Assembly (NCBI GenBank): GCA_021323335.1
Contig: JAJTCN010000022.1
Coordinates: 1 to 33,673, forward strand
DNA from: Ramlibacter sp.
Lineage (GTDB): Bacteria; Pseudomonadota; Gammaproteobacteria; Burkholderiales; Burkholderiaceae_C
DNA: 33,673 nt
Reading direction: 5' to 3'
Shown here: positions 8,204 to 18,278 of the stretch, piece after piece
How the letters are laid out: each line of letters begins with the position of its first letter
How positions within the stretch are numbered: position 1 is the first letter of the stretch
Made by a program: the position numbers and the translations under genes
Notes under the pieces: generated by a model
What the model saw: only the letters and a program-made list of their open reading frames with translations
What the model was told of the DNA's origin: nothing
Databases searched by the model: none

Positions 8204-8230
8204 TGAATGTGCACACAACACATTCATAAT
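8204..8230 (+). promoter_or_regulatory. Promoter with palindromic operator, copy 1 (DUF6502/DUF5666 unit)
   Basis: A perfect inverted repeat TGAATGTG-N7-CACATTCA spans 8204-8226 with N7 CACACAA. It overlaps a good -10 hexamer, CATAAT, at 8225-8230, 22 bases before the ATG at 8252. The same palindrome core stands in front of the TlpA operon (10510-10530). The position across the core promoter is typical of repressor sites. Confidence 0.6.
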
Positions 8231-8251
8231 CCGTCCAGAGCCCTCCCACCC

Positions 8252-9154
8252 ATGGATTCGTCCCAACCCTTCCAGGCCGAGCAGCAAGCATTGCTCTCGG
8301 CCATCTCCGAGCTGCTGGCGCCGCTGGCGGCCCTGTGCATCGCGCGGGGCGTGACCATCCAGCCGATGGAGGAACTGCTGCGGCAGGCCTTCGTCGTCGC
8401 GGCGCGCCAGGCCTGCGCCGACGCCGGCGCGCAGGGGGACCGGGTGACCAGCCGCATCAGCACCATGACCGGCCTGACCCGCCGCGAAGTCACGCGGCTC
8501 GCCCTGGCCGCGCGGGCCGCGGAGGAGGCCGCGCCGCCCGCGGCACGCTCGCTGGCCACCGAGCTGCTCACCCGCTGGGTGAGCCAGCGTCCCTACATCG
8601 ACGCCAGGGGCCGGCCGCGCAAGCTGTCGCGCCTCGGGCCGGCACCGAGCTTCGAGTCGCTGGCGGCCTCGATCACCCGCGACGTGCATCCGCGCAGCGT
8701 GCTGGCGGAGATGGAGCGACTGGGGCTGGTGACCGTCGACGCGGCGCGGGGCCGCGTGACGCTGCTGGCCGAGTCGTTCGTGCCGCGCACCGACTGGCCG
8801 CGCATGGTCGGCTTCCTCGGCGCCAACGTCGGCGCCCACCTGCGGGCCGCGGCCGCCAACGTGATGGGCACCGGCAGCGAACACTTCGAGCAGGCCCTGA
8901 TGGCCGACGAGCTGTCGGTCGAATCCCTCGCGCACGCGCGCCGTCTGATCGCCGACGAGTGGCGCCATCTCATGACCACCCTCGGGCCGCAGTTGCAGGC
9001 CCTGATGGATGAAGACCAGGCGGCCGGCCGCCCGCAGGACCAGGCGCTGCGCCTGGGCCTTTATTCCTGGATGCAACCCATGGACGCACCGGCGCCGGCC
9101 CCCGCGGCCCCGGTCGCCCCGCCGAAACGCACGAAGAGGAAGCCCCTGCCATGA
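8252..9154 (+). CDS. DUF6502 family protein, possible DNA-binding regulator
   Basis: The product is 300 residues from MDSSQPFQAEQQ. It matches what I know of DUF6502: an N-terminal helical region (LAPLAALCIARGVTIQPMEE, then LLRQAFVVAARQ), the SRISTMTGLTRREVTRL segment (about residues 68-84) that reads like a helix-turn-helix, a central region LLTRWVSQRPYIDARGRP, and a helical C-terminus with an Ala/Pro then Lys/Arg tail (PPKRTKRKPLP). No signal peptide is seen. I chose the ATG at 8252; an in-frame ATG at 8207 lies inside the operator and is upstream of the -10. It overlaps the DUF5666 gene by 4 bases (ATGA), so the two are co-translated. DUF6502 function is not established; the HTH-like segment makes a regulatory role plausible. 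Confidence 0.8.
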   Translation: MDSSQPFQAEQQALLSAISELLAPLAALCIARGVTIQPMEELLRQAFVVAARQACADAGAQGDRVTSRISTMTGLTRREVTRLALAARAAEEAAPPAARSLATELLTRWVSQRPYIDARGRPRKLSRLGPAPSFESLAASITRDVHPRSVLAEMERLGLVTVDAARGRVTLLAESFVPRTDWPRMVGFLGANVGAHLRAAAANVMGTGSEHFEQALMADELSVESLAHARRLIADEWRHLMTTLGPQLQALMDEDQAAGRPQDQALRLGLYSWMQPMDAPAPAPAAPVAPPKRTKRKPLP

Positions 9155-10344
9155 GCCATCGCCTGCCCCCGTTTCCCGTGAACCGCCGCCTGGCGTTGTT
9201 GGCCCTGGCCGGCATGGCGGCGCAGCTGGCCGGCTGTGGCGGGGGCAGCTCCGCCGGCCTGGACAGCGGCGGCACCGGTTCGTTCACCAGCGGCACCGTC
9301 ACCGGCCTCGGCTCCATCATCGTGGGCGGGGTGCGCTATGAAGACCGCGGCGCGCAAGTGGTGCGCAGCGACGGCGGCGCCGTCTCCGCGCTGCGCGTGG
9401 GGATGGTGGTGTCGGTGCAGGGCTCGCCGATCTCGGCGCCCCCGGGCGCCGGTGACCTGCCCACCGCGACGGCCGAACGCATCACCTATGCCAGCGAGTG
9501 GGCCGGCCCGGCGGGAACGGTCGATCCACAGTCGGGAACGTTCACCGTGCTGGGGCAGACGGTGCAGGTGCGCGCCAATACGGTCTTCGACGGCGCTGCC
9601 ATGCAGCTGGACGCGCTGGATGCCTCGATGTTCGTGGAGGTGTACGGCTACCTGGACACCCGCACCGGCCGGCTGTTCGCGACCCGGGTCGAATCCGGCA
9701 CGGCCGCGCCCTCCAGCTACCAGCTCAGTGGAACGGTCGCCGCGTTCGACCCGGACGCGCGCCGCTTCAGGCTCGGCACGGCCGTCATCGATGCGGGCGG
9801 CCTCGCGCTGCCCGCCGGCCTGGCGGACGGCCGCCTGGTGCGCGTGCGCCTGGCCACGCGGCGCACGGACGCGGCGTGGACGGCGACGCGCATCGACCTG
9901 CGCGATGCCGATGCCCAGGCGCTCGCTGATGCGGACGGCGCCGACGTGGAAGTGGAAGGCAAGGTGACCTCCTTCACCTCGGTCCAGCGCTTCAGCGTCA
10001 ACGGCCTGCCGGTCGACGCGCGCGCCGCCCAGGTGGAGGGCAGCTTCACGCTGGGCGCCAGCGTGGAGGTGCACGGCCGCTCCGTCGACGGAGTGATCGT
10101 GGCCAGTCGCGTGGAGGTGGAAGACGAATCCGAGATCGAGCAGCGCGAGTACGAGTTCTACGGCACCGTGAGCGACCTCGACACCGCGGCCCGCCGCTTC
10201 ACGCTGCGCGGCCAGGTGTTCGTCTACACGCAGGCGACCCGGTTCGAAGACGGCGTCACGCTCGCCGACGGCGCCTACGTGAAGGTGAAGGCCGCGCGCA
10301 TCGCCGGCCGCTGGGTGGTCTCCAGGGTCGAATCCGGGCGCTGA
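9151..10344 (+). CDS. DUF5666-domain lipoprotein
   Basis: The product is 397 residues with a lipoprotein signal (LALAGMAAQLAGCGGGSSAG, Cys about residue 29) and a Gly/Ser linker, so it is probably anchored to the outer membrane facing the periplasm or surface. The body consists of successive small beta-barrel (OB-like) DUF5666 repeats. Recurrent motifs are GTVTGLGSIIVGGVRYED, GTVDPQSGTFTVLGQTV, GTVAAFDPDARRFRLG, GKVTSFTSVQRFSVNG and GTVSDLDTAARRFTLRG, each followed by a V-x-V-x-G strand. That gives about five copies, the last near residues 330-390. The ATG overlaps the DUF6502 stop. The role is unknown; the pairing with DUF6502 recurs in Betaproteobacteria to my knowledge. It could bind a ligand or metal, but no clear metal ligands are visible. 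Confidence 0.82.
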   Translation: MSHRLPPFPVNRRLALLALAGMAAQLAGCGGGSSAGLDSGGTGSFTSGTVTGLGSIIVGGVRYEDRGAQVVRSDGGAVSALRVGMVVSVQGSPISAPPGAGDLPTATAERITYASEWAGPAGTVDPQSGTFTVLGQTVQVRANTVFDGAAMQLDALDASMFVEVYGYLDTRTGRLFATRVESGTAAPSSYQLSGTVAAFDPDARRFRLGTAVIDAGGLALPAGLADGRLVRVRLATRRTDAAWTATRIDLRDADAQALADADGADVEVEGKVTSFTSVQRFSVNGLPVDARAAQVEGSFTLGASVEVHGRSVDGVIVASRVEVEDESEIEQREYEFYGTVSDLDTAARRFTLRGQVFVYTQATRFEDGVTLADGAYVKVKAARIAGRWVVSRVESGR

Positions 10345-10402
10345 CGCGCCGCCAGCCGGGTGCGGCAAGCTGCCGCGCCCACGACGTCCTTCTCCCTTTG
10401 CC

Positions 10403-10428
10403 GCTCCGCGACCCGTCCGTCGCGGAGC
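10403..10428 (+). terminator. Strong hairpin between the DUF5666 gene and the TlpA operon
   Basis: A perfect 10-bp stem (GCTCCGCGAC at 10403-10412, GTCGCGGAGC at 10419-10428) with a 6-base loop stands 58 bases after the DUF5666 stop. It lacks a U-tract, so it is not a classical intrinsic terminator. It may mark a transcript 3' end or aid Rho-dependent termination. The rest of 10345-10506 shows no gene. Confidence 0.4.
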
Positions 10429-10506
10429 GTCGCGGCGTTGCCCTTGCACCCATGCCTTCCCGGACAGGGAGCCGGTCGGCCGTAGTACGGATGGCTACAA
10501 ATTTCC

Positions 10507-10535
10507 TTGAAATGTGCAATAAACACATTTAATAT
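10507..10535 (+). promoter_or_regulatory. Promoter with palindromic operator, copy 2 (TlpA operon)
   Basis: A sigma-70-like promoter reads TTGAAA (10507-10512), 17-base spacer, TAATAT (10530-10535). Within it lies the perfect inverted repeat AAATGTG (10510-10516), CAATAAA, CACATTT (10524-10530). The same arms with the same N7 spacing occur at 8205-8225. A protein bound here would block RNA polymerase, so repression is the simplest reading. The TlpA ATG is 55 bases downstream. Confidence 0.65.
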
Positions 10536-10590
10536 CGGCCCGCCATCCACCCCCGCCCGCCCGCAGCGGCGACGAAGAAAGGACCGACCG

Positions 10591-11112
10591 ATGACAACGA
10601 ACCTGACACGACGCCGCTGGCTCGGCACCTGCCTGGCAGCCAGCCTCCCCCTCGCCGCCGGCCTGCAGCCGTCCCTGGCCGCGACCCTCCGCCTGCCGGC
10701 CCCGGACTTCGAACTGCCCGGCCCCGACGGTGGCGGCGTGAAGCTGTCCGCCCTGCGCGGCAAGGTGGTCTACCTGGACTTCTGGGCCTCGTGGTGCGGA
10801 CCCTGCCGCCAGTCGTTCCCCTGGATGAACGACCTGCAGACCCGGCTGGGCCCGCGGGGCCTGCAGGTGCTGGGCGTCAACCTCGATGCGAAGCCCGCGG
10901 AGGCGAGGCGCTTCCTGGCCGAAGTCCCTGCGCGCTTCGCGCTGGCGTTCGACGAGAAGGGCGCCACGCCGCGCCTGTTCGGCGTCAAGGGCATGCCCAC
11001 CAGCGTGCTGATCGACCGCGAAGGCCGCATCGCGGCAGTCCATGCCGGCTTCCAGCCCTCGCAGACGTCCCCGCTGGAAAAGGAGATCGCCCTCCTGCTG
11101 GAGGCGCAGTGA
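10591..11112 (+). CDS. TlpA-like periplasmic thioredoxin, Tat-type signal
   Basis: The product is 173 residues. The N-terminus NLTRRRWLGTCLAASLPLAAG has a twin-arginine-like signal and exports the protein. The mature part is an AhpC/TSA-Redoxin/TlpA thioredoxin fold: APDFELPGPDGG, LRGKVVYLDFWASWCGPCRQSFP with Cys69 and Cys72 in WCGPC, LGVNLD, and the cis-Pro loop GMPTSVLIDREGRI. Enzymes of this type reduce or isomerise particular periplasmic thiols. The ATG follows AAAGGACC at good spacing. It is the first gene of a tight operon and overlaps the DUF4266 gene (TGATG). The DsbD encoded four genes downstream is the likely electron donor, and the two-Cys DUF4266 lipoprotein a likely client; both are inferences from context. 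Confidence 0.9.
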   Translation: MTTNLTRRRWLGTCLAASLPLAAGLQPSLAATLRLPAPDFELPGPDGGGVKLSALRGKVVYLDFWASWCGPCRQSFPWMNDLQTRLGPRGLQVLGVNLDAKPAEARRFLAEVPARFALAFDEKGATPRLFGVKGMPTSVLIDREGRIAAVHAGFQPSQTSPLEKEIALLLEAQ

Positions 11113-11351
11113 TGCAAAGCTCCGGTCACCTTGGCGCGCTGTCCCGATGGGTGGTCCCGGCCTGCGCGCTGCTCGCGGGCTGCTCGGGCCTGGCGCCCGT
11201 GCAGCCCTGGGAAAAGGGCGTGCTCGCGCGGCCGTCGATGACCTTCGACGCCGACCGCCTGGACAGCGCCTACGTCGAGCACACCTACAGCAGCAAGGAA
11301 GGCGCTTCCGGCGGCGCCGGCGTCGGCGGCGGCGGCTGCGGCTGCAACTGA
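11112..11351 (+). CDS. DUF4266 mini-lipoprotein with Gly-rich CGC tail
   Basis: This 79-residue protein starts MQSSGHLGALSRWVVPACAL. The lipobox LLAGC places the lipidated Cys at residue 24. The mature part is about 55 residues: VQPWEKGVLARPSMTFD, a short acidic/aromatic middle (YVEHTYSSKEG), then a glycine-rich end GGAGVGGGGCGCN with Cys76 and Cys78. This layout fits the DUF4266 family. It overlaps both neighbours by one base of a TGATG junction, so its translation is coupled to tlpA and to the DUF3570 gene. The terminal CGC pair could bind metal, form a disulfide or carry a modification; none is shown. The lipid anchor suggests a place at the outer membrane next to the DUF3570 barrel. Confidence 0.85.
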   Translation: MQSSGHLGALSRWVVPACALLAGCSGLAPVQPWEKGVLARPSMTFDADRLDSAYVEHTYSSKEGASGGAGVGGGGCGCN

Positions 11352-12460
11352 TGGCGACGCTGCACCACTCCCTGCTGGCGGCGGCGGCCCTGCTGCCGCT
11401 GGCGCCCACCGTGGCACTGGCCGAGACGGCGCCGCAGCAGGGCACCCTCTCGTACAAGTACCTGGACTACCAGGACCGCCAGCCCGGCGAGGACCGCGTC
11501 GGCATCAAGGCACACGCGCTGGCCCTCACCGTGCCGCTGGGCGAGTCCTGGTCGTTCGACGCCAACGCCGTCACCGATGCGGTGTCGGGCGCATCGCCGC
11601 GTTACCACACGCAGCGCCTCACGCCGCTGGAGGACCGGCGCAATGCACTCGGCGTGGGGCTCACCCGCTACTTCGCGCGCGGCTCCCTGAACGTCGGCGG
11701 CAACTACTCCAAGGAGGCCGACTACCTCTCGCGCAGCTTCTCGACGACGCTGACGTGGTTCACCGACGAGGGCAAGAACACCGCGCTGATCGCCGGCGCG
11801 GGCGTCACCCGCGACGAGATCAACCCCACCAACGGCATCGTGGCGGGCGAGCGCAAGGCGGTGGTCGAGGTGCTGGCCGGCGTGACGCAGGTGCTGACGC
11901 CCTCGGACATCGCGCAGGTGATCGTGCGCCACGCCCGCGGCAGCGGCTACTACAGCGACCCCTACAAGGCCTGGGACGAGCGTCCGCGCGAGCGCAACGC
12001 CAGCACGCTGCTGCTGCGCTGGAACCACCACCTGGAAGCCACCGATGCCAGCGTGCGCACCAGCTACCGCTTCTACACCGACTCCTTCGGCCTGCGGGCG
12101 CACACGCTGGGCCTGGAGTTCGAGCAGCCCCTGGGCGCGGGCTGGACGGTCACGCCGCTACTGCGGCTGTACTCGCAGAACGCCGCCTCGTTCTACGTCC
12201 CCTACAACCCCGGCCCCACGGGCCAGACCTTTCCGGACCCCGGGGCGCGCTACTACACGCAGGACCAGCGCCTGTCCGCATTCGGCGCCGTCACCGCCGG
12301 ATTGAAGCTGGCCTGGCAAGTCAACCCCGCCTGGTCGATCGACGCGAAGTTCGAGGCCTACCGCCAGCGCGGCGACTGGGCCCTGCAGGGCCGCGGCGAC
12401 CCGGGCCTGGCGCCCTTCGACGCCCGCAGCGTGCAGCTGGGCGTGACGCACCGGTTCTGA
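11351..12460 (+). CDS. DUF3570 outer-membrane beta-barrel protein
   Basis: The product is 369 residues with a signal peptide ending near residue 25 (PTVALAE). It continues as alternating amphipathic beta strands rich in Tyr, Thr and Arg (GTLSYKYLDYQDRQPGEDR, VGIKAHALALTVPL, RRNALGVGLTRYF, GSLNVGGNYSKEADY, TSYRFYTDSFGLRAHTLGLE) and ends VQLGVTHRF. The terminal Phe is the usual signal for barrel insertion. Length and motifs fit DUF3570. The ATG overlaps the DUF4266 stop (TGATG). The pairing of DUF4266 and DUF3570, often with an ApbE-like gene, is to my knowledge a recurrent but functionally undefined arrangement. A role as pore or scaffold for the mini-lipoprotein is inference. Confidence 0.87.
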   Translation: MATLHHSLLAAAALLPLAPTVALAETAPQQGTLSYKYLDYQDRQPGEDRVGIKAHALALTVPLGESWSFDANAVTDAVSGASPRYHTQRLTPLEDRRNALGVGLTRYFARGSLNVGGNYSKEADYLSRSFSTTLTWFTDEGKNTALIAGAGVTRDEINPTNGIVAGERKAVVEVLAGVTQVLTPSDIAQVIVRHARGSGYYSDPYKAWDERPRERNASTLLLRWNHHLEATDASVRTSYRFYTDSFGLRAHTLGLEFEQPLGAGWTVTPLLRLYSQNAASFYVPYNPGPTGQTFPDPGARYYTQDQRLSAFGAVTAGLKLAWQVNPAWSIDAKFEAYRQRGDWALQGRGDPGLAPFDARSVQLGVTHRF

Positions 12461-12471
12461 GGCGCGACACC

Positions 12472-13368
12472 ATGAACGTCCAGAGCCACGACTTCCGGGC
12501 CATGGCCAGCCCCTGCGAAGTGGTCATTGCCGGCGCCGAGCCGGCGCAGGCGCTGCTGGCGGCCTGCGCCGCCGAAGCCGAAGTGCGCCGCATCGAGCTC
12601 AAGTACTCGCGCTTCCGGCCCGACAGCGTCATCGGCCGCATCAATGCCGGCGCCCATGCCGGGCCGGTGACGGTGGACGACGAGACGCTGGCGCTGCTGC
12701 ACTACGCCGGCCGGCTGCACGCGCTCAGCGACGGCTTGTTCGACATCACCACCGGCGCGCTGCAGGGCGCGTGGGACTTCAAGGCGGGCCGCATCCCCGG
12801 CGACGCCGAACTGGCCGCGCTGCTGCCCCACGTCGGTTGGCATCACGTTCGCATCGAGGGCCGCGCGCTGCGGCTGGCCGACCCGCTGGCGCGCGTGGAC
12901 CTGGGCGGCTTCGGCAAGGAGTACGCCGCCGACCGCGCCGCGGCCGTCCTGCAGGCGCAGGGCGTGGCCAGCGGCTATGTGAACCTCGGCGGCGACATCC
13001 GCGTGGTCGGCCCGCGCCCCGACGGCAGCCCCTGGCAGATCGGCATCTGCCACCCCCGTGACCCGGGCAAGTTGCTGGCCAGCATCCCGGTGGCGAGCGG
13101 CGGCCTGGCCACCAGCGGCGACTACGAGCGCTTCTTCGAGAAGGACGGACAACGCTATTGCCACGTGCTGTCGCCGCGCGACGGCCGGCCGGTCACGCGC
13201 TGGCAGTCGGTCTCGGTCCTCGCGCCCGAGGCCATCACCGCCGGCACGGCCTGCACCGTGGCGATGCTCAAGCAGGACGAGGCGCTGGCCTTCCTGCGCG
13301 CCAGCACGCTCGCGTTCCTGGCCGTGGATGCCGACGGCGTCATCCACACCCACCACACCAAGGAGTGA
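12472..13368 (+). CDS. ApbE-like FAD:protein FMN transferase, divergent
   Basis: The product is 298 residues with the ApbE fold. Canonical enzymes move FMN from FAD to a Thr/Ser of exported proteins. Recognisable motifs are FRAMASPCEVVI (usually MGT), YSRFRPDSVIGRIN, FDITTGAL, DLGGFGKEYAAD (143-154), YVNLGGDIRVVG (169-180), ATSGDYERFF (213-222), RYCHVLSPRDGRPV with His231, and AGTACTVAML (257-266). Two features are unusual. There is no signal peptide, although most ApbE proteins are periplasmic. At the C-terminal metal site the family's A-D-A-x-A-T reads A-G-T-A-C-T, so the usual Asp is missing. The gene starts 11 bases after the DUF3570 stop. It may be a specialised subfamily with altered metal use or substrate. 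Confidence 0.85.
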   Translation: MNVQSHDFRAMASPCEVVIAGAEPAQALLAACAAEAEVRRIELKYSRFRPDSVIGRINAGAHAGPVTVDDETLALLHYAGRLHALSDGLFDITTGALQGAWDFKAGRIPGDAELAALLPHVGWHHVRIEGRALRLADPLARVDLGGFGKEYAADRAAAVLQAQGVASGYVNLGGDIRVVGPRPDGSPWQIGICHPRDPGKLLASIPVASGGLATSGDYERFFEKDGQRYCHVLSPRDGRPVTRWQSVSVLAPEAITAGTACTVAMLKQDEALAFLRASTLAFLAVDADGVIHTHHTKE

Positions 13369-13376
13369 GGCCCCCC

Positions 13377-15251
13377 ATGTTCAATCCCTTTCCCAAGGCC
13401 CTGCGCCTGCTGGCGCTCGTGCCGCTGCTGCTGCCCGGCCTGCCGCAGGCGGCCACGCCGACGGCGCCGCAGGACTTCCTGGAGCCCGACCAGGCCTTCG
13501 TGCTGCAGGTGGCGCTGGACGGCCCCGCCGCCCTGGCGGTGAGCTGGCGCATCGCGCCGGGCTACAAGCTGTACCAGCATGCGCTGTCCGTCGAGTCCGC
13601 TTCCGTCTCCGTCGCGGCACTGCAACTGCCGCCCGGCAGGACGGCGTTCGACACCGCCCTGGGCCGCCAGGTCGCCACCTACCGCGATGCCGTGACGGGC
13701 CGCGTGGCCTTGCCGCCCGCCGCCACGCCATTGGAAGTGGACGTGGGCTACCAAGGCTGCGCGGATGGCGGCCTCTGCTATCCACCGCAGTCGCGCCGGT
13801 TCCGGGTGGATCCCGCGGCCGGCACGGTGGCGGCGATCGAGCCGCCCGAGCCGCGCGGCGGCCTGCTGCAGGTGGCGACGACGGCACCCGTGGCCGCCGC
13901 CGGAATGCCGGACGCCGACGCGCCGGTGTCCGCGGAATCGATCCTGCGCGGCGGCAGCCTGCCGCGCATCGCGCTGGCCTTCGTGCTGTTCGGCCTGCTG
14001 CTCTCGCTCACGCCCTGCGTGCTGCCGATGCTGCCGATCCTGTCGACCATCATCCTCGGAGAGAAGGACCCGGGGCGCGGCCGGGGCCTCGTGCTGGCGG
14101 CCTCCTATGCGCTGGGCATGGCCACCGTCTACACCAGCCTCGGGGTGGCCGCCGGACTGGTCGGCGAAGGCCTGGCCGCCTTCCTGCAGCAGCCGTGGGT
14201 GCTGGTGCTGTTCGCCTCGCTGCTGGCGCTGATGGCGCTGTCGATGTTCGACGTGTTCCAGCTGCAGCTGCCCGCCGCCTGGCAAGGCCGCCTGAGCGAG
14301 GCCAGCGGCCGGCTGCGCGGCGGGCGGGTGGCCAGCGTGTTCGCCATGGGCGCGGTCTCGTCGCTGATCGTGGGGCCCTGCGTGGCGGGGCCGATGGCCG
14401 GGGCCCTGCTGTACATCAGCAAGACGCGCGACGTGGCCATCGGCGCGCTGGCGCTGTTCGCCATGGCCTGCGGCATGAGCGTGCCGCTGCTGCTCACCGG
14501 CTGGTCGGCCGGACGCCTGCTGCCGCGGGCCGGCGCATGGATGCAGCACGTCAAGTCTTTCTTCGGCTTCCTGCTGCTGGCGGTGGCGCTGTGGATGATC
14601 AACCCGCTGCTCGGCCCGTCGGTGCGCCTGCTGGCCTGGGGCGCGCTGCTGGTGCTGGCCGCCCTGTTCACGCCGCTGGCGGCGCCGCGCACCGGCCATG
14701 AGGGTTTCGGTGGACGGGCCGCCCGCGCGGCGGGCGTGCTGATGCTGGTGACGGGCCTGGCCGAGATCGCCGGCGGCCTGATGGGCAACGACGATGCCTT
14801 CGCGCCCCTTCGGCAGCCGCCACCGGCGGGCCTGCAGGCCGCCGGGCCGGCGCGCGGGCAGGGCATGGCCTTCGAGCCGGTGCGCAGCACGGGCGATCTC
14901 GATCGCATCCTGCAGGCATCGGACCGTCCGGTCATGCTGGACTTCTACGCCGACTGGTGCGCGTCCTGCCTGGAGATGCAGCGCGGGACCTTCTCCGACC
15001 CGCAGGTGCTGCAGCAGGCGCAGTCGCTGCGCCGGCTGAAGGTGGACGTCACGCGCAACACGCCCGAAGACCGCGAGCTGATGCGCCGGTTCCGCCTGTT
15101 CGGCCCGCCGGGCCTGGTGTTCTTCGACGCCCGCGGGCAGGAACTGCAGGAGCTGCGCGTCATGGGGTCCATGGCAGCGGCGCCATTCGGCGCGCACCTG
15201 CGCAAGGTGATCCAGCAGGCGCAGGCGGGCGCGCCCAATCCCATCCAGTGA
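13377..15251 (+). CDS. dsbD: Thiol:disulfide interchange protein DsbD
   Basis: The product is 624 residues and moves electrons from cytoplasmic thioredoxin across the inner membrane to periplasmic thioredoxin-fold proteins. The signal peptide ends at about residue 25. The N-terminal DsbD-alpha domain has Cys128 and Cys134 in GCADGGLCYPP. The membrane domain of about eight helices (about 197-465) has Cys214 in LTPCVLPMLP and Cys335 in VGPCVAGPM. The C-terminal thioredoxin domain has Cys528 and Cys531 in YADWCASC. All six redox Cys of the family are present. The ATG at 13377 is 8 bases after the ApbE stop, in the same operon as the TlpA protein, which suggests a dedicated reducing system for this locus. 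The chromosome may carry another DsbD. Confidence 0.94.
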   Translation: MFNPFPKALRLLALVPLLLPGLPQAATPTAPQDFLEPDQAFVLQVALDGPAALAVSWRIAPGYKLYQHALSVESASVSVAALQLPPGRTAFDTALGRQVATYRDAVTGRVALPPAATPLEVDVGYQGCADGGLCYPPQSRRFRVDPAAGTVAAIEPPEPRGGLLQVATTAPVAAAGMPDADAPVSAESILRGGSLPRIALAFVLFGLLLSLTPCVLPMLPILSTIILGEKDPGRGRGLVLAASYALGMATVYTSLGVAAGLVGEGLAAFLQQPWVLVLFASLLALMALSMFDVFQLQLPAAWQGRLSEASGRLRGGRVASVFAMGAVSSLIVGPCVAGPMAGALLYISKTRDVAIGALALFAMACGMSVPLLLTGWSAGRLLPRAGAWMQHVKSFFGFLLLAVALWMINPLLGPSVRLLAWGALLVLAALFTPLAAPRTGHEGFGGRAARAAGVLMLVTGLAEIAGGLMGNDDAFAPLRQPPPAGLQAAGPARGQGMAFEPVRSTGDLDRILQASDRPVMLDFYADWCASCLEMQRGTFSDPQVLQQAQSLRRLKVDVTRNTPEDRELMRRFRLFGPPGLVFFDARGQELQELRVMGSMAAAPFGAHLRKVIQQAQAGAPNPIQ

Positions 15252-15276
15252 ACCATCCAACTCCAGAGGAGCCACC

Positions 15277-16068
15277 ATGGCCATGTATTCCCGCATCCTG
15301 ACCGGCACGGCCGGCAACGACATCCGCTCGATCCAGGAGCCGGACAGCTTCAACCAGTGGATCTACACCTTAGACGGCCAGGCCGGCGTCGACCGGCTCG
15401 GGTTCGACCGCTTGCCCCAGTCGGAGTTCACGATCTACAAGGACGCCGCCGGCATCCACGTCGACAGCGTCTCCGCCGCCTCGCACATGGTCTACACGAC
15501 GCTCAAGAACGTGGAGGAGCTGTCCTTCTCCACCGGCTCGACGATCGTGTACCTGAACCAGCTGTTCCCGATCACCGGCACGACGGCCGCCAATACGCTC
15601 GCCGGCTCGGGTTCGCGCGACACGCTGCTGGGGCTGGGTGGCAACGACGCGCTCAGCGGCGGCGCCGGCGACGACATCCTGGCGGGCGGAACCGGCAGGG
15701 ACACCCTGATCGGCGGCGCCGGCAAGGACCTGTTCGACTTCGACGCCATCAGCGAATCCGGGCCGTCGATCACCAAGCGCGACGTGATCCAGGACTTCAA
15801 CCATGCCAGGGACCACGACATGCTCGACCTGCGCACCATCGACGCCCGCCCCTCGCAGGCCGGCCACGTCGCCGCCAGCGGCAACAACGACAAGTTCACC
15901 TTCCTGGGCAGCGCGCCGCGCGCGGCGACCGAGGGCGTGCTCTGGTACGACGCGACGGCCAAGGTGCTATACGGCAGCACGGACGCCGACGCCGCGGCGG
16001 AGTTCTCGATCCGCGTCGATCTCACCGGCATTTCCGTCGCGAACGCGGCGACCTACCTGCTGCTCTGA
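15277..16068 (+). CDS. RTX-repeat calcium-binding secreted protein
   Basis: The product is 263 residues with no Sec signal. The N-terminal 100 residues form a beta-rich part (TLDGQAGVDRLGFDRLP, TIVYLNQLFPITGTT). At about 101-152 are tandem nonapeptide repeats with the GGxGxDxLx pattern (GLGGNDALS, GGAGDDILA, GGTGRDTLI, GGAGKDLFDF), which fold as a calcium-bound parallel beta roll. The last 110 residues resemble the serralysin-type C-terminal domain (DVIQDFNHARDHDMLDL, then a hydrophobic end, TYLLL), the type I secretion signal region. AGAGGAG precedes the ATG. It begins 25 bases after dsbD, so it is probably co-transcribed with it. No type I secretion genes and no protease domain are seen here. 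Its partner and purpose are unknown. Confidence 0.85.
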   Translation: MAMYSRILTGTAGNDIRSIQEPDSFNQWIYTLDGQAGVDRLGFDRLPQSEFTIYKDAAGIHVDSVSAASHMVYTTLKNVEELSFSTGSTIVYLNQLFPITGTTAANTLAGSGSRDTLLGLGGNDALSGGAGDDILAGGTGRDTLIGGAGKDLFDFDAISESGPSITKRDVIQDFNHARDHDMLDLRTIDARPSQAGHVAASGNNDKFTFLGSAPRAATEGVLWYDATAKVLYGSTDADAAAEFSIRVDLTGISVANAATYLLL

Positions 16069-16079
16069 GCCGGTGGGTC

Positions 16080-18152
16080 TCAGTTCTTCTCGAGCCTGCC
16101 GCTTCGGTAGATCACCGCGGTGCGGCCGCTGGCCAGGACCCGCTCGCTGAAAACGCTCCAGAAACGCAAACCGTCGGGCCGCGCGACCAGCTGGGTCTCG
16201 TAGGCCGACTCGTCGTCGTCGAACAGCGCCCCCGCGGCTGCAGAGAGGCGCACGGGCGCGCTGAAGTTGGCCCCGCCATCGGTACTGGCAGCGATGAACA
16301 GCCCCAGGTCCCCGCCGGCGACCACATTCTCCTGGGTCCCCCATGCCAGGTAGAGCACATTGGTGTCCTGGCACTGCGCGGGGTCCGTCGTGGAGGGGTC
16401 GTCCGGTGCGCCCGTGGGGCAGGCTGCGGGACTGCTCTTCGGCGTGCCCAGGATGCGCGGCTCGCGCACGTTGATGCGGCGGTCCGTGATCCGGGTCACG
16501 TTGCGCGGCAATTCCCAGCGCCGCGTCGCCGCATCGAACTTGCGGATGAAGAAGTTGTAGTTGGTTTCCTGGGTCGCCATTCTCGCCAGGCTCTTCGTGT
16601 ACGTATAGCCGATCCAGAGGTCGGGCCCGCGCAGGACACCGCGATGGGCAATGGCATTCTCGGCGGCGTTGGCCTGGGTGTCGTCCCGCAAGCCGTCGTC
16701 CGCCACGGTTGCCACGGAGGCACGACTGCTCATGTTCTCCGCCCGCGCATTGCGCAGCGCGGCGGCTACGGCGGGATCGGACGTGGCGCAGCGCGCATCC
16801 ACGGCGGGCACGAGGTTCGCCGCACCGGTGCCTCCCTTGCCGCGACGCAGGACGATGTCCGCGGTCGCGCCCTGGCCGCCGACCCCCTCGCGCCAGAAGA
16901 TCGCCAGCTGCAGGCCGGCGGTCCCGGCGTCGGTCGCCGACTGGGTGAGGAACCGGACGCGCCGCGCGTTCTTCGCGGGGTCGCTGATGATGCAGCCGGC
17001 GCGACCGGCTCCCGCCGGCGGGTCGCCGCGAGGGAACGTGACGTAGCGGACGTACTTGCCCTCCGCTTCCCCGGCGCCCTTCTTCTCTTCGTAAGCGACG
17101 ATGGCGGTGCCGCCGTCGAGGCCGACGTTGGCACGCGACGCGCCGACCGTGCCCGCTTCGATCTGGTTCGCCGGCACCGCGGCGCCCGCGGCGTCGATCA
17201 CGCGCTGCCCTTCCACCATCGCGAGGAAGCCGGAGCGGTTGTCGGTCAGCCGCACCGGCTGCGCAAGGACGAAGTCGTCTTCGACGGTGGCCGGGTTGTT
17301 CGACAGGTTCACGGTGGCGGACACATACCAGATGTCCGAACCGCCGCTCGTATTCGATCCGGCGGCCCCGTCGCCCGGCCCCTCCGCCTCCCCGAGCAGC
17401 AGGCCCTGCGGGTCTTCCTGCCAGGTGATGGCCACGCGGCCCTGCTTCGTGTCGGGGCTGTAGTTGCCGGCATTGGCATCCTGGATCGCGTCCCGCTCCC
17501 CCGTGCTCAGCTGCACTGCCGGAGCCCAGGTCTGGCCGGCGTCGACGGAGCGGGCCACCCAGACGCAACTGAAGGGGATCACGCGGCCGCCACGTTCCAG
17601 GTACTCGGTGGCGCGCTGGACGGGCGGCTGCACGCCCGCTGTCACAAGATCGCCGTCGGGGCAGTACTTCCCGACCCAGGTGACGACCAGCACGGGACCG
17701 CTCGCCTTGATGTTCGGCTTGTCGATGTCGCCCGCATAGTCGCGCGCCACACCATCGCCACGCCAGTCCGCGCGCATGCTGCTCCTGGCGGAGGACCGCG
17801 ACAGGTTGACGGCCGCCGACCAGTCGCGCGCGCGGTCGCAGGTGCGCACGGCATCGGGCTTGCAGGATTTCGCGTAGATGTCCCGCGCGGGCCGCTCCTT
17901 GGCCGCTTTCACGTCGTACACGCGCCGTGCCGCGTCCGGCGCATCGCCGTAGACGACGATCAGCGTGCCATCCGGCGCGCGCTGGATCTTCGGCTTGTCG
18001 GCGTCTTCGTGGTCGCTCACCTCGACCTGGGCCGCCACGGTGGGAGCCGACGGCTCCGGCACGTCGTTGCCGCCGCCACACCCGGACAGAAGAAAGGGCA
18101 CCAGGGCCAGCAGGGCCGCGATGAAGACGGAACTTCCGGGACGTTCTTTCAC
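16080..18152 (-). CDS. Large lipoprotein, probable 'choice-of-anchor O' family
   Basis: The product is 690 residues. The start is GTG at 18152, supported by AAGGAAG eight bases upstream; the open frame reaches 18260 but without such a signal. The N-terminus VKERPGSSVFIAALLALVPF then LLSGCGGG is a lipoprotein signal. The body has sialidase/BNR-like Asp-box motifs (SVDAGQTWAPAVQL, STDGGANFSAPVRL) and segments I associate with the choice-of-anchor O family: DKPKIQRAPDGTLIVVYGD, ERPARDIYAKSCK, DIDKPNIKASG, VVTWVGKYCP, ITWQEDPQGLLLGEAEGPGD, VAYEEKKG, CIISDPAKNARRVRF. It is probably a beta-propeller on the cell surface or outer membrane. The function is unknown to me. It is divergent from another large lipoprotein gene and convergent with the RTX gene (11 bases between stops). 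Confidence 0.75.
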   Translation of the reverse strand: MKERPGSSVFIAALLALVPFLLSGCGGGNDVPEPSAPTVAAQVEVSDHEDADKPKIQRAPDGTLIVVYGDAPDAARRVYDVKAAKERPARDIYAKSCKPDAVRTCDRARDWSAAVNLSRSSARSSMRADWRGDGVARDYAGDIDKPNIKASGPVLVVTWVGKYCPDGDLVTAGVQPPVQRATEYLERGGRVIPFSCVWVARSVDAGQTWAPAVQLSTGERDAIQDANAGNYSPDTKQGRVAITWQEDPQGLLLGEAEGPGDGAAGSNTSGGSDIWYVSATVNLSNNPATVEDDFVLAQPVRLTDNRSGFLAMVEGQRVIDAAGAAVPANQIEAGTVGASRANVGLDGGTAIVAYEEKKGAGEAEGKYVRYVTFPRGDPPAGAGRAGCIISDPAKNARRVRFLTQSATDAGTAGLQLAIFWREGVGGQGATADIVLRRGKGGTGAANLVPAVDARCATSDPAVAAALRNARAENMSSRASVATVADDGLRDDTQANAAENAIAHRGVLRGPDLWIGYTYTKSLARMATQETNYNFFIRKFDAATRRWELPRNVTRITDRRINVREPRILGTPKSSPAACPTGAPDDPSTTDPAQCQDTNVLYLAWGTQENVVAGGDLGLFIAASTDGGANFSAPVRLSAAAGALFDDDESAYETQLVARPDGLRFWSVFSERVLASGRTAVIYRSGRLEKN

Positions 18153-18230
18153 AAGCGTTCTTCCTTTTTGCCGGTCAAGGGTGGGCCTGGGCATTCTCGA
18201 AGGCGAGCCGCCCGCGTCATTGATCCAGCA

Positions 18231-18278
18231 CAACTTGCAACGGCGTCGCCAGCGGCTCACTTGACTTTGCGCAAGTTG
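18231..18278. promoter_or_regulatory. Inverted repeat CAACTTGC...GCAAGTTG in a divergent promoter region
   Basis: Perfect 8-bp arms at 18231-18238 and 18271-18278, separated by 32 bases, lie between the two divergent large lipoprotein genes (intergenic 18153-18421). TTGACT at 18261 and TTGCCT at 18276 with GATAAA at 18297 are possible but weak promoter elements. The arms could be a paired regulator site or a transcript hairpin. Nothing else is recognisable in the 269-base gap. Confidence 0.4.

Follow-up and report, generated by a model that had tools for sequence, protein, structure and literature searches.

The 33,673-nucleotide window analysed here (contig JAJTCN010000022.1 of assembly GCA_021323335.1, from a Ramlibacter species) carries five adjacent genes on the + strand that encode a TlpA-like thioredoxin-fold protein, a DUF4266 mini-lipoprotein, a DUF3570 outer-membrane protein, an ApbE-family flavin mononucleotide (FMN) transferase and DsbD. 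Their adjacency was confirmed from the sequence, with overlaps or short gaps between them: TGATG junctions lie at 11110-11114 (TlpA-like/DUF4266) and 11349-11353 (DUF4266/DUF3570), and gaps of 11 and 8 bases separate DUF3570 from ApbE and ApbE from DsbD, respectively. An earlier sequence-only reading had described five co-directional genes with gaps of at most 11 bases and two TGATG junctions; the coordinates bear this out, and Pfam confirms each of the five family names it had given. The genes and the elements discussed below are the following:

10591-11112, + strand: TlpA-like thioredoxin-fold protein (Pfam Redoxin 2.2e-23, AhpC-TSA)
11112-11351, + strand: DUF4266 mini-lipoprotein (Pfam PF14086 1.2e-22)
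11325-11348, + strand: C-terminal GGGGCGCN tail of DUF4266, with the CGC pair at 11337-11345
11351-12460, + strand: DUF3570 outer-membrane protein (Pfam PF12094 8.8e-62)
11576-11596, + strand: flavinylation motif DAVSGAS of DUF3570 (residues 76-82), fitting D-x-x-[S/T]-G-A-[S/T]
12472-13368, + strand: ApbE-family FMN transferase (Pfam PF02424 7.9e-76)
12919-12921, + strand: codon of ApbE Glu150, a position held by Gly in each of the 32 rows with Asp- or Glu-type ApbE in the alignment described below
13243-13245, + strand: codon of ApbE Gly258, which occupies the site of the catalytic/metal-site Asp (D280 in E. coli, D285 in V. cholerae)
13377-15251, + strand: full-length DsbD (Pfam DsbD_TM, PF02683, 4.6e-88; NCBIfam PRK00293 over cut-off)
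10507-10535, + strand: promoter-like site TTGAAA-17-TAATAT from a consensus scan, just 5' of the TlpA-like gene

Clusters of this composition have been described before. In the accessible part of their paper, Méheust et al. (2021; PMC8238504) report DsbD clusters with ApbE, DUF3570, a thioredoxin-like protein and a DUF4266 protein with a C-terminal CXC, as well as 316 further such clusters without DsbD. The DUF3570 protein of Chlorobium luteolum was flavinylated at two SGAS-like sites by its cognate ApbE in E. coli, as seen in-gel, and it was proposed that the thioredoxin-like protein is fed by DsbD and that the CxC mini-protein may cycle (PMC8238504). Nothing beyond this paper was found in the full-text literature on DUF4266, DUF3570 and PF12094. 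All five components are also present in the window, whose operon is an unremarkable example of a system that is known but poorly understood, not a new one. There are differences in detail: two conserved barrel motifs are described in the paper, whereas a single SGAS site is present in the barrel of the window, and the published thioredoxin-like protein belongs to PF13899 (PMC8238504), whereas the separate gene of the window belongs to Redoxin/AhpC-TSA, PF13899 matching only the tail of DsbD in the window. No functional difference between the window's operon and the published system is apparent.

The window's gene order is also that of genome G323, which we take to be C. luteolum DSM 273; there TlpA, DUF4266, DUF3570, ApbE and DsbD follow one another on one strand. 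Between the two loci, identity amounts to 54.8% over 135 aligned columns for the TlpA-like protein, 68.2% over 66 for DUF4266, 45.8% over 397 for DUF3570, 53.5% over 297 for ApbE and 47.7% over 619 for DsbD. Three further Chlorobiaceae loci, read around their ApbE genes (L205, L206 and L207), have the same five-gene order.

A sample of 299 genomes from the phylum yielded PF14086 matches over cut-off in 20. Altogether 101 loci were compared, namely the window, 20 longer stretches from the PF14086 genomes and 80 loci found by DUF4266 alignment, the latter being the best 80 of 347 confirmed; as many stretches end at contig ends, the module counts over these loci are lower bounds. DUF4266 is present in all 101. 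DUF3570 lies behind it in 100, the exception being L080, whose contig stops there. A TlpA-like gene lies 5' of this pair in 94, and an ApbE of the clade described below is found in the stretch in 78, on the same strand and at most 2.6 kb behind in 74. A DsbD match above 100 bits occurs in 17 stretches, and the complete five-gene order of the window in 10. This co-occurrence is far beyond chance, and the check that had been suggested with the sequence-only reading, a count of DUF3570, ApbE and TlpA among DUF4266 neighbours, turns out in its favour. Its claim of a dedicated DsbD/TlpA/CGC redox system stands in so far as the module is recurrent and co-inherited and agrees with the proposal in the accessible text of PMC8238504, but it was incomplete, as the flavin on the barrel was missing from it. 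Around the module no constant partner emerged among the first 25 of 116 families matched by 145 flanking open reading frames (ORFs), taken at random from the 197 that flank 57 loci with a G+C content of up to 56%; the commonest were response regulators (9/145) and APH (7/145).

The ApbE proteins of these clusters form a distinct group. An alignment of 134 different rows was made, fragments below 230 residues and repeats being left out, and a leader was scored as a 12-residue segment with a mean hydropathy of at least 2.2 ahead of the domain. None of the 95 linked ApbEs, i.e., those no more than 2.6 kb away from DUF3570 or DUF4266, has such a segment, and 93 of them carry Gly at the site of the catalytic Asp, the other two being cut by the stretch end. 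The 39 distant or unlinked ApbEs comprise 30 with Asp, two with Glu and seven with Gly. A leader is present in 28 of the 30 Asp-type proteins (one of the others scores 2.14 and one has a short upstream part); the two Glu-type rows, which are one protein in two stretches, have none by the hydropathy rule. Of the seven distant Gly-type rows, three lie 3.4-6.1 kb and one 2.7 kb from DUF3570 or DUF4266 in the same stretch, two (L188 and L201) come from genomes with DUF3570, and L190, from G312, adjoins only a DUF3570 fragment. In a quick tree of 131 ApbE rows, a branch with an SH-aLRT value of 99 has the 100 Gly rows together on one side. None of the possible start codons gives the window's ApbE a hydrophobic leader, and under the same rule it has neither the signal peptide nor the lipobox of a secreted ApbE. 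A plasmid protein search with it returned relatives below 60% identity only.

The loss of the Asp goes together with a second change. Residues 150 and 258 are E/G in 100 of the 134 rows, E/gap in two, G/D in 30 and G/E in two, without any mixed state. In an alignment to the ApbE of 3pnd, presumably the Salmonella enzyme, G258 of the window corresponds to the first Asp of ADGWDT, equated with E. coli D280, and E150 to the Gly four residues past the ligand Thr. Metal site 1 of E. coli ApbE has D280, D283, T284 and the T166 carbonyl as its ligands (PMC4767422, accessible part), and the conserved residues of V. cholerae ApbE are Ser241, His257 and Asp285 (PMC12052999, accessible part). The window's enzyme shares with the canonical secreted ApbE/Ftp proteins of E. 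coli, V. cholerae and T. pallidum the Pfam family, Ser215, His231 and Thr262. It differs from them in that the Asp of the catalytic Ser-His-Asp set is Gly258, the Gly beside Lys149 is Glu150, and the signal peptide is missing by the hydropathy rule; the absence of signal peptide and catalytic Asp had no place in the sequence-only reading. Judging from the alignment, the metal-site carboxylate would have moved from position 258 to position 150. The ApbE of G323, taken as the tested C. luteolum enzyme, carries KEY and AG at the swap sites, so the swapped form should be active if this identification holds. A leaderless ApbE adjoining an FMN_bind gene in G042 retains the Asp, which indicates that the swap is a mark of the clade and not of cytosolic ApbEs generally. 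Cytoplasmic FMN transferases without signal peptide have a precedent in Klebsiella pneumoniae, where, unlike the window's protein, ApbE serves a soluble fumarate reductase (PMC12052999).

At the level of genomes, all 42 ApbEs of 20 genomes were examined; L208, L209 and L210, outside the 134 rows, have the Asp by eye, and L208 is leaderless. A single ApbE, of the clade type, is found in the window's genome (G000, 89.7% complete), in G231 and in G102, with no FMN_bind protein in any of the three; G246 and G121 also have no FMN_bind, but more than one ApbE. Of the 43 Chlorobiaceae genomes, 32 contain DUF3570, and 31 of these have at least one E/G-type ApbE, G333 being without an ApbE match; the 11 genomes without DUF3570 have Asp-type ApbE only (seven), no ApbE match (three) or the E/G type (G312), a few second ApbE copies (e.g., in G319 and G339) being left unread in this count. 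G312 was rejected as a case of an E/G ApbE without DUF3570, as a DUF3570 fragment (81 codons, 18.4 bits) adjoins and the contig ends soon after. A second ApbE, leader-bearing and of Asp type, is present in G323.

DUF3570 is predicted by its structure model to be a 16-strand porin-like β-barrel and, with a leader, an even strand number and a barrel fold, it has the features expected of an outer-membrane barrel. The FMN is expected on Ser82, in the predicted extracellular loop L2. Among 110 DUF3570 proteins, 90 sites of the DxxSGAS type were located, 89 of which are predicted in outward loop L2 and one at the edge of L1. The window's barrel has no Cys, and after residue 40 Cys occurs in only 10 of the 110 proteins, so that the flavin is likely to be its redox group. 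The presence of [ST]GA[ST] in the barrel goes with that of the clade ApbE: over the 98 loci with a barrel row, the motif is found in 77 of the 78 with ApbE in the stretch (the exception is L070) vs 12 of the 20 without, and where more than 2 kb lie behind the barrel, in 68/68 vs 8/14. The losses are no independent events, since they mostly concern one sub-group with SSAS or SNAS for SGAS. A flavin-carrying barrel was not named among the matches listed, an absence that excludes nothing.

As to where the flavin is attached, the ApbE might be exported without a classical signal, or act when released, and flavinylate the barrel precursor in the periplasm, leaving the electron chain unchanged. Most bacterial ApbEs do seem to be secreted (PMC12052999, accessible part). 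Moreover, loci without clade ApbE often keep [ST]GA[ST], as just mentioned; G007, G015 and G267 have a leader-bearing Asp-type ApbE 11-12 kb upstream of the module, and G246 has a Glu-type ApbE, leaderless by the hydropathy rule, 6.6 kb upstream. The complete lack of leaders in the linked ApbEs, compared to their near-constant presence in the Asp type, and from any start of the window's frame, makes periplasmic attachment unlikely.

Several observations on DUF3570 stand apart from this. The Chlorobiaceae locus L217 (G336) has two neighbouring DUF3570 genes in a single cluster (frames starting at 872 and 2994), and in several genomes of this family DUF3570 is found on more than one contig. Another type of DUF4266-DUF3570 cluster, without clade ApbE, is seen in L162-L166 (G007, G015, G267, G246 and G186) and includes a large ORF of about 900-1000 amino acids, lipoprotein-like in most of the loci, besides other envelope-like ORFs. 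An apparent ApbE-barrel fusion in L073 was discarded, as the long frame turned out to read the barrel gene in another way; ORFs with both ApbE and DUF3570 domains are absent from the 101 stretches.

The DUF4266 mini-lipoprotein has the lipobox LLAGC (Cys24, codon 11181-11183), and the lipobox Cys and the C-terminus are conserved. Pfam found 23 DUF4266 proteins, the window's included, 22 of them over cut-off. These 22 end in GGGCGCN (20), AGGCGCN (one) or GGGCGCY (one), which means that 21 end exactly in GGCGCN; in the sub-threshold match, L021, the motif is not terminal. The 80 alignment-found loci were selected by the pattern [GA]GGGCGCN and are unusable for judging tail conservation. The AlphaFold2 (AF2) model is of low confidence, with a mean predicted local distance difference test score (pLDDT) of 65.6, and tells no more than that the tail is poorly ordered; the arm with the CGC is glycine-rich and has no confident structure. 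In G102, L167 (6007-9004) encodes a DUF4266 ending in CGCY, followed by a DUF3570 of about twice the usual length (912 codons).

A CGC pair could bind Cu or Zn. This possibility, together with the near-invariant C-terminus, is what speaks for the earlier idea that the barrel's sole role is to hold or present the mini-lipoprotein, kept reduced, so that metal can be captured, with ApbE modifying something else. Beyond the CGC motif, nothing was found in support of metal capture. The window's barrel keeps DAVSGAS, while its DUF4266 has no flavinylation motif, and DUF3570 is a proven ApbE substrate in what is presumed to be the same five-gene cluster (PMC8238504, accessible part). The holder idea is therefore highly improbable, DUF3570 being a flavin-carrying redox protein rather than a mere holder. 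The further suggestion that ApbE modifies a partner was right, but the partner is the barrel and not the mini-lipoprotein (PMC8238504).

The TlpA-like protein has a CGPC active site and an exported-type leader (10591-10680) with a twin-arginine-like TRRRWLG stretch, similar to one in L036. It matches Pfam Redoxin, AhpC-TSA and Thioredoxin_8, and NCBIfam ResA/TlpA below cut-off. DsbD has its N-terminal, transmembrane and thioredoxin domains. The window's genome has two DsbD_N matches, the second of which lies at a contig end (G000:C11).

Taken together, we consider it reasonably probable, at roughly 0.6, that the operon encodes a DsbD-type flavinylation module in which a thiol chain leads to FMN on the barrel, with the flavin loaded before export and situated outside. 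DsbD would move electrons over the inner membrane to the CGPC site of the TlpA-like protein in the periplasm, which would in turn reduce the C-terminal CGC pair of the mini-lipoprotein, and the flexible CGC arm would then reduce the FMN on Ser82 of the DUF3570 barrel. The dedicated leaderless ApbE would act in the cytosol and load the barrel precursor with FMN while this is still unfolded, ahead of its export by Sec and its assembly as a barrel, and the flavin would end on the extracellular side and reduce an external acceptor, for which ferric iron is the usual guess. We infer the place of flavinylation, the thiol-to-flavin step, the reach of the arm into the barrel, the direction of flow and the acceptor. 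Cytosolic loading is suggested by the missing ApbE leader and fits the outward site, which would be out of reach for a periplasmic enzyme once the barrel is built, while the unfolded chain would still be accessible. In the published work, signal-peptide-truncated constructs were made for a different pair, while 'a similar cloning strategy' was used for the C. luteolum pair, the bulk of whose DUF3570 was in the pellet (PMC8238504); this makes modification of an unfolded cytosolic barrel plausible. The accessible part of that paper does not say where the DUF3570-linked ApbE resides, nor does it mention a barrel.

The same chain could be read the other way round, as periplasmic redox repair or maturation, in which thiol reduction is what is served and the flavin barrel is a sink that oxidises the CGC arm, with inward or lateral flow. 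TlpA and DsbD are indeed classical thiol maintenance proteins, and among the flanking families listed no constant neighbour points to an external acceptor. However, DsbD is an exporter of reductant, and the flavin site is predicted outside the barrel, which would be odd for a periplasmic sink; repair is accordingly quite unlikely. In the Erv2/Erv1 flavin sulfhydryl oxidases, too, a flexible C-terminal arm places a CGC pair beside a flavin, whereas in the window's module arm and flavin are on separate proteins. A bolder version of the export reading, possible but tentative, is a haem-free outer-membrane conduit, with an FMN barrel loaded in the cytosol by the D258G/G150E ApbE, the CGC arm in its lumen and electrons from DsbD/TlpA. 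In this version the barrel would be exported together with its cofactor and display the flavin outside, and the metal-site carboxylate of its ApbE would have passed from one half of the active site to the other. Conduits of the MtrCAB type consist of an outer-membrane barrel and a haem protein. They resemble the system proposed here in that the barrel carries electrons outward, but have a multihaem cytochrome in it, where the window has thiols and flavin and no haem protein: no cytochrome c family is matched by any of the five proteins, and the word 'cytochrome' occurs only in the name of the DsbD membrane domain.

Several points weigh against the flavinylation module as outlined. The window's own proteins are known here from sequence and models alone. 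DsbD is optional in the cluster, as its count of 17 stretches indicates, and a DsbD_N match is absent from 3 of 21 genomes. Of the 14 loci with more than 2 kb behind the barrel and no clade ApbE, eight retain the motif. The lost Asp is a metal ligand in E. coli ApbE, for which Glu150 would have to compensate. The absence of a signal peptide follows from a hydropathy rule and not from SignalP, the unlinked clade row L190 passes this rule at 2.26 via an alternative start, and a non-classical export route for the clade ApbE is possible. Lastly, the sole ApbE of G001 (98% complete) is of Asp type and lies elsewhere, the module being cut by the contig end.

Regarding transcription, the promoter-like match at 10507-10535 is the only sigma-70-like site in 10200-16300 (6.1 kb; 1 found vs 0.1 expected by shuffling), although a consensus match is not by itself proof of function. 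The single terminator-like match falls within dsbD and is no more than chance would give (1 found vs 1.8 expected). Upstream on the same strand (8207-10344) are a DUF6502 gene and a gene for a DUF5666 protein with three stretches. Downstream, a short RTX calcium-binding protein (15277-16068, 25 bases 3' of dsbD) is perhaps co-transcribed with dsbD, and a choice-of-anchor O protein (16083-18260, - strand; NCBIfam NF040591 over cut-off) is convergent with the operon. None of these flanking genes recurs in the 100 other stretches; the five genes are for this reason regarded as the unit, and the RTX gene was dropped as a sixth member.

While the CXC end of DUF4266 is itself in PMC8238504, the literature search, as far as the sources were accessible, gave no prior account of the leaderless ApbE clade, the E/G swap, the outward flavin loop or the exact CGCN end. 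If the flavin is indeed outside the pore and attached before export, the system would be a cytochrome-free electron route across the outer membrane, and a covalently flavinylated precursor would pass the Sec and barrel-assembly machines. The E/G residue pair offers a sequence mark for the dedicated ApbEs and a test of metal binding in the ApbE family. Altogether, the features found across the clade, i.e., the leaderless ApbE, the E/G pair, the outward loop and the CGCN end, make the job of this system testable.

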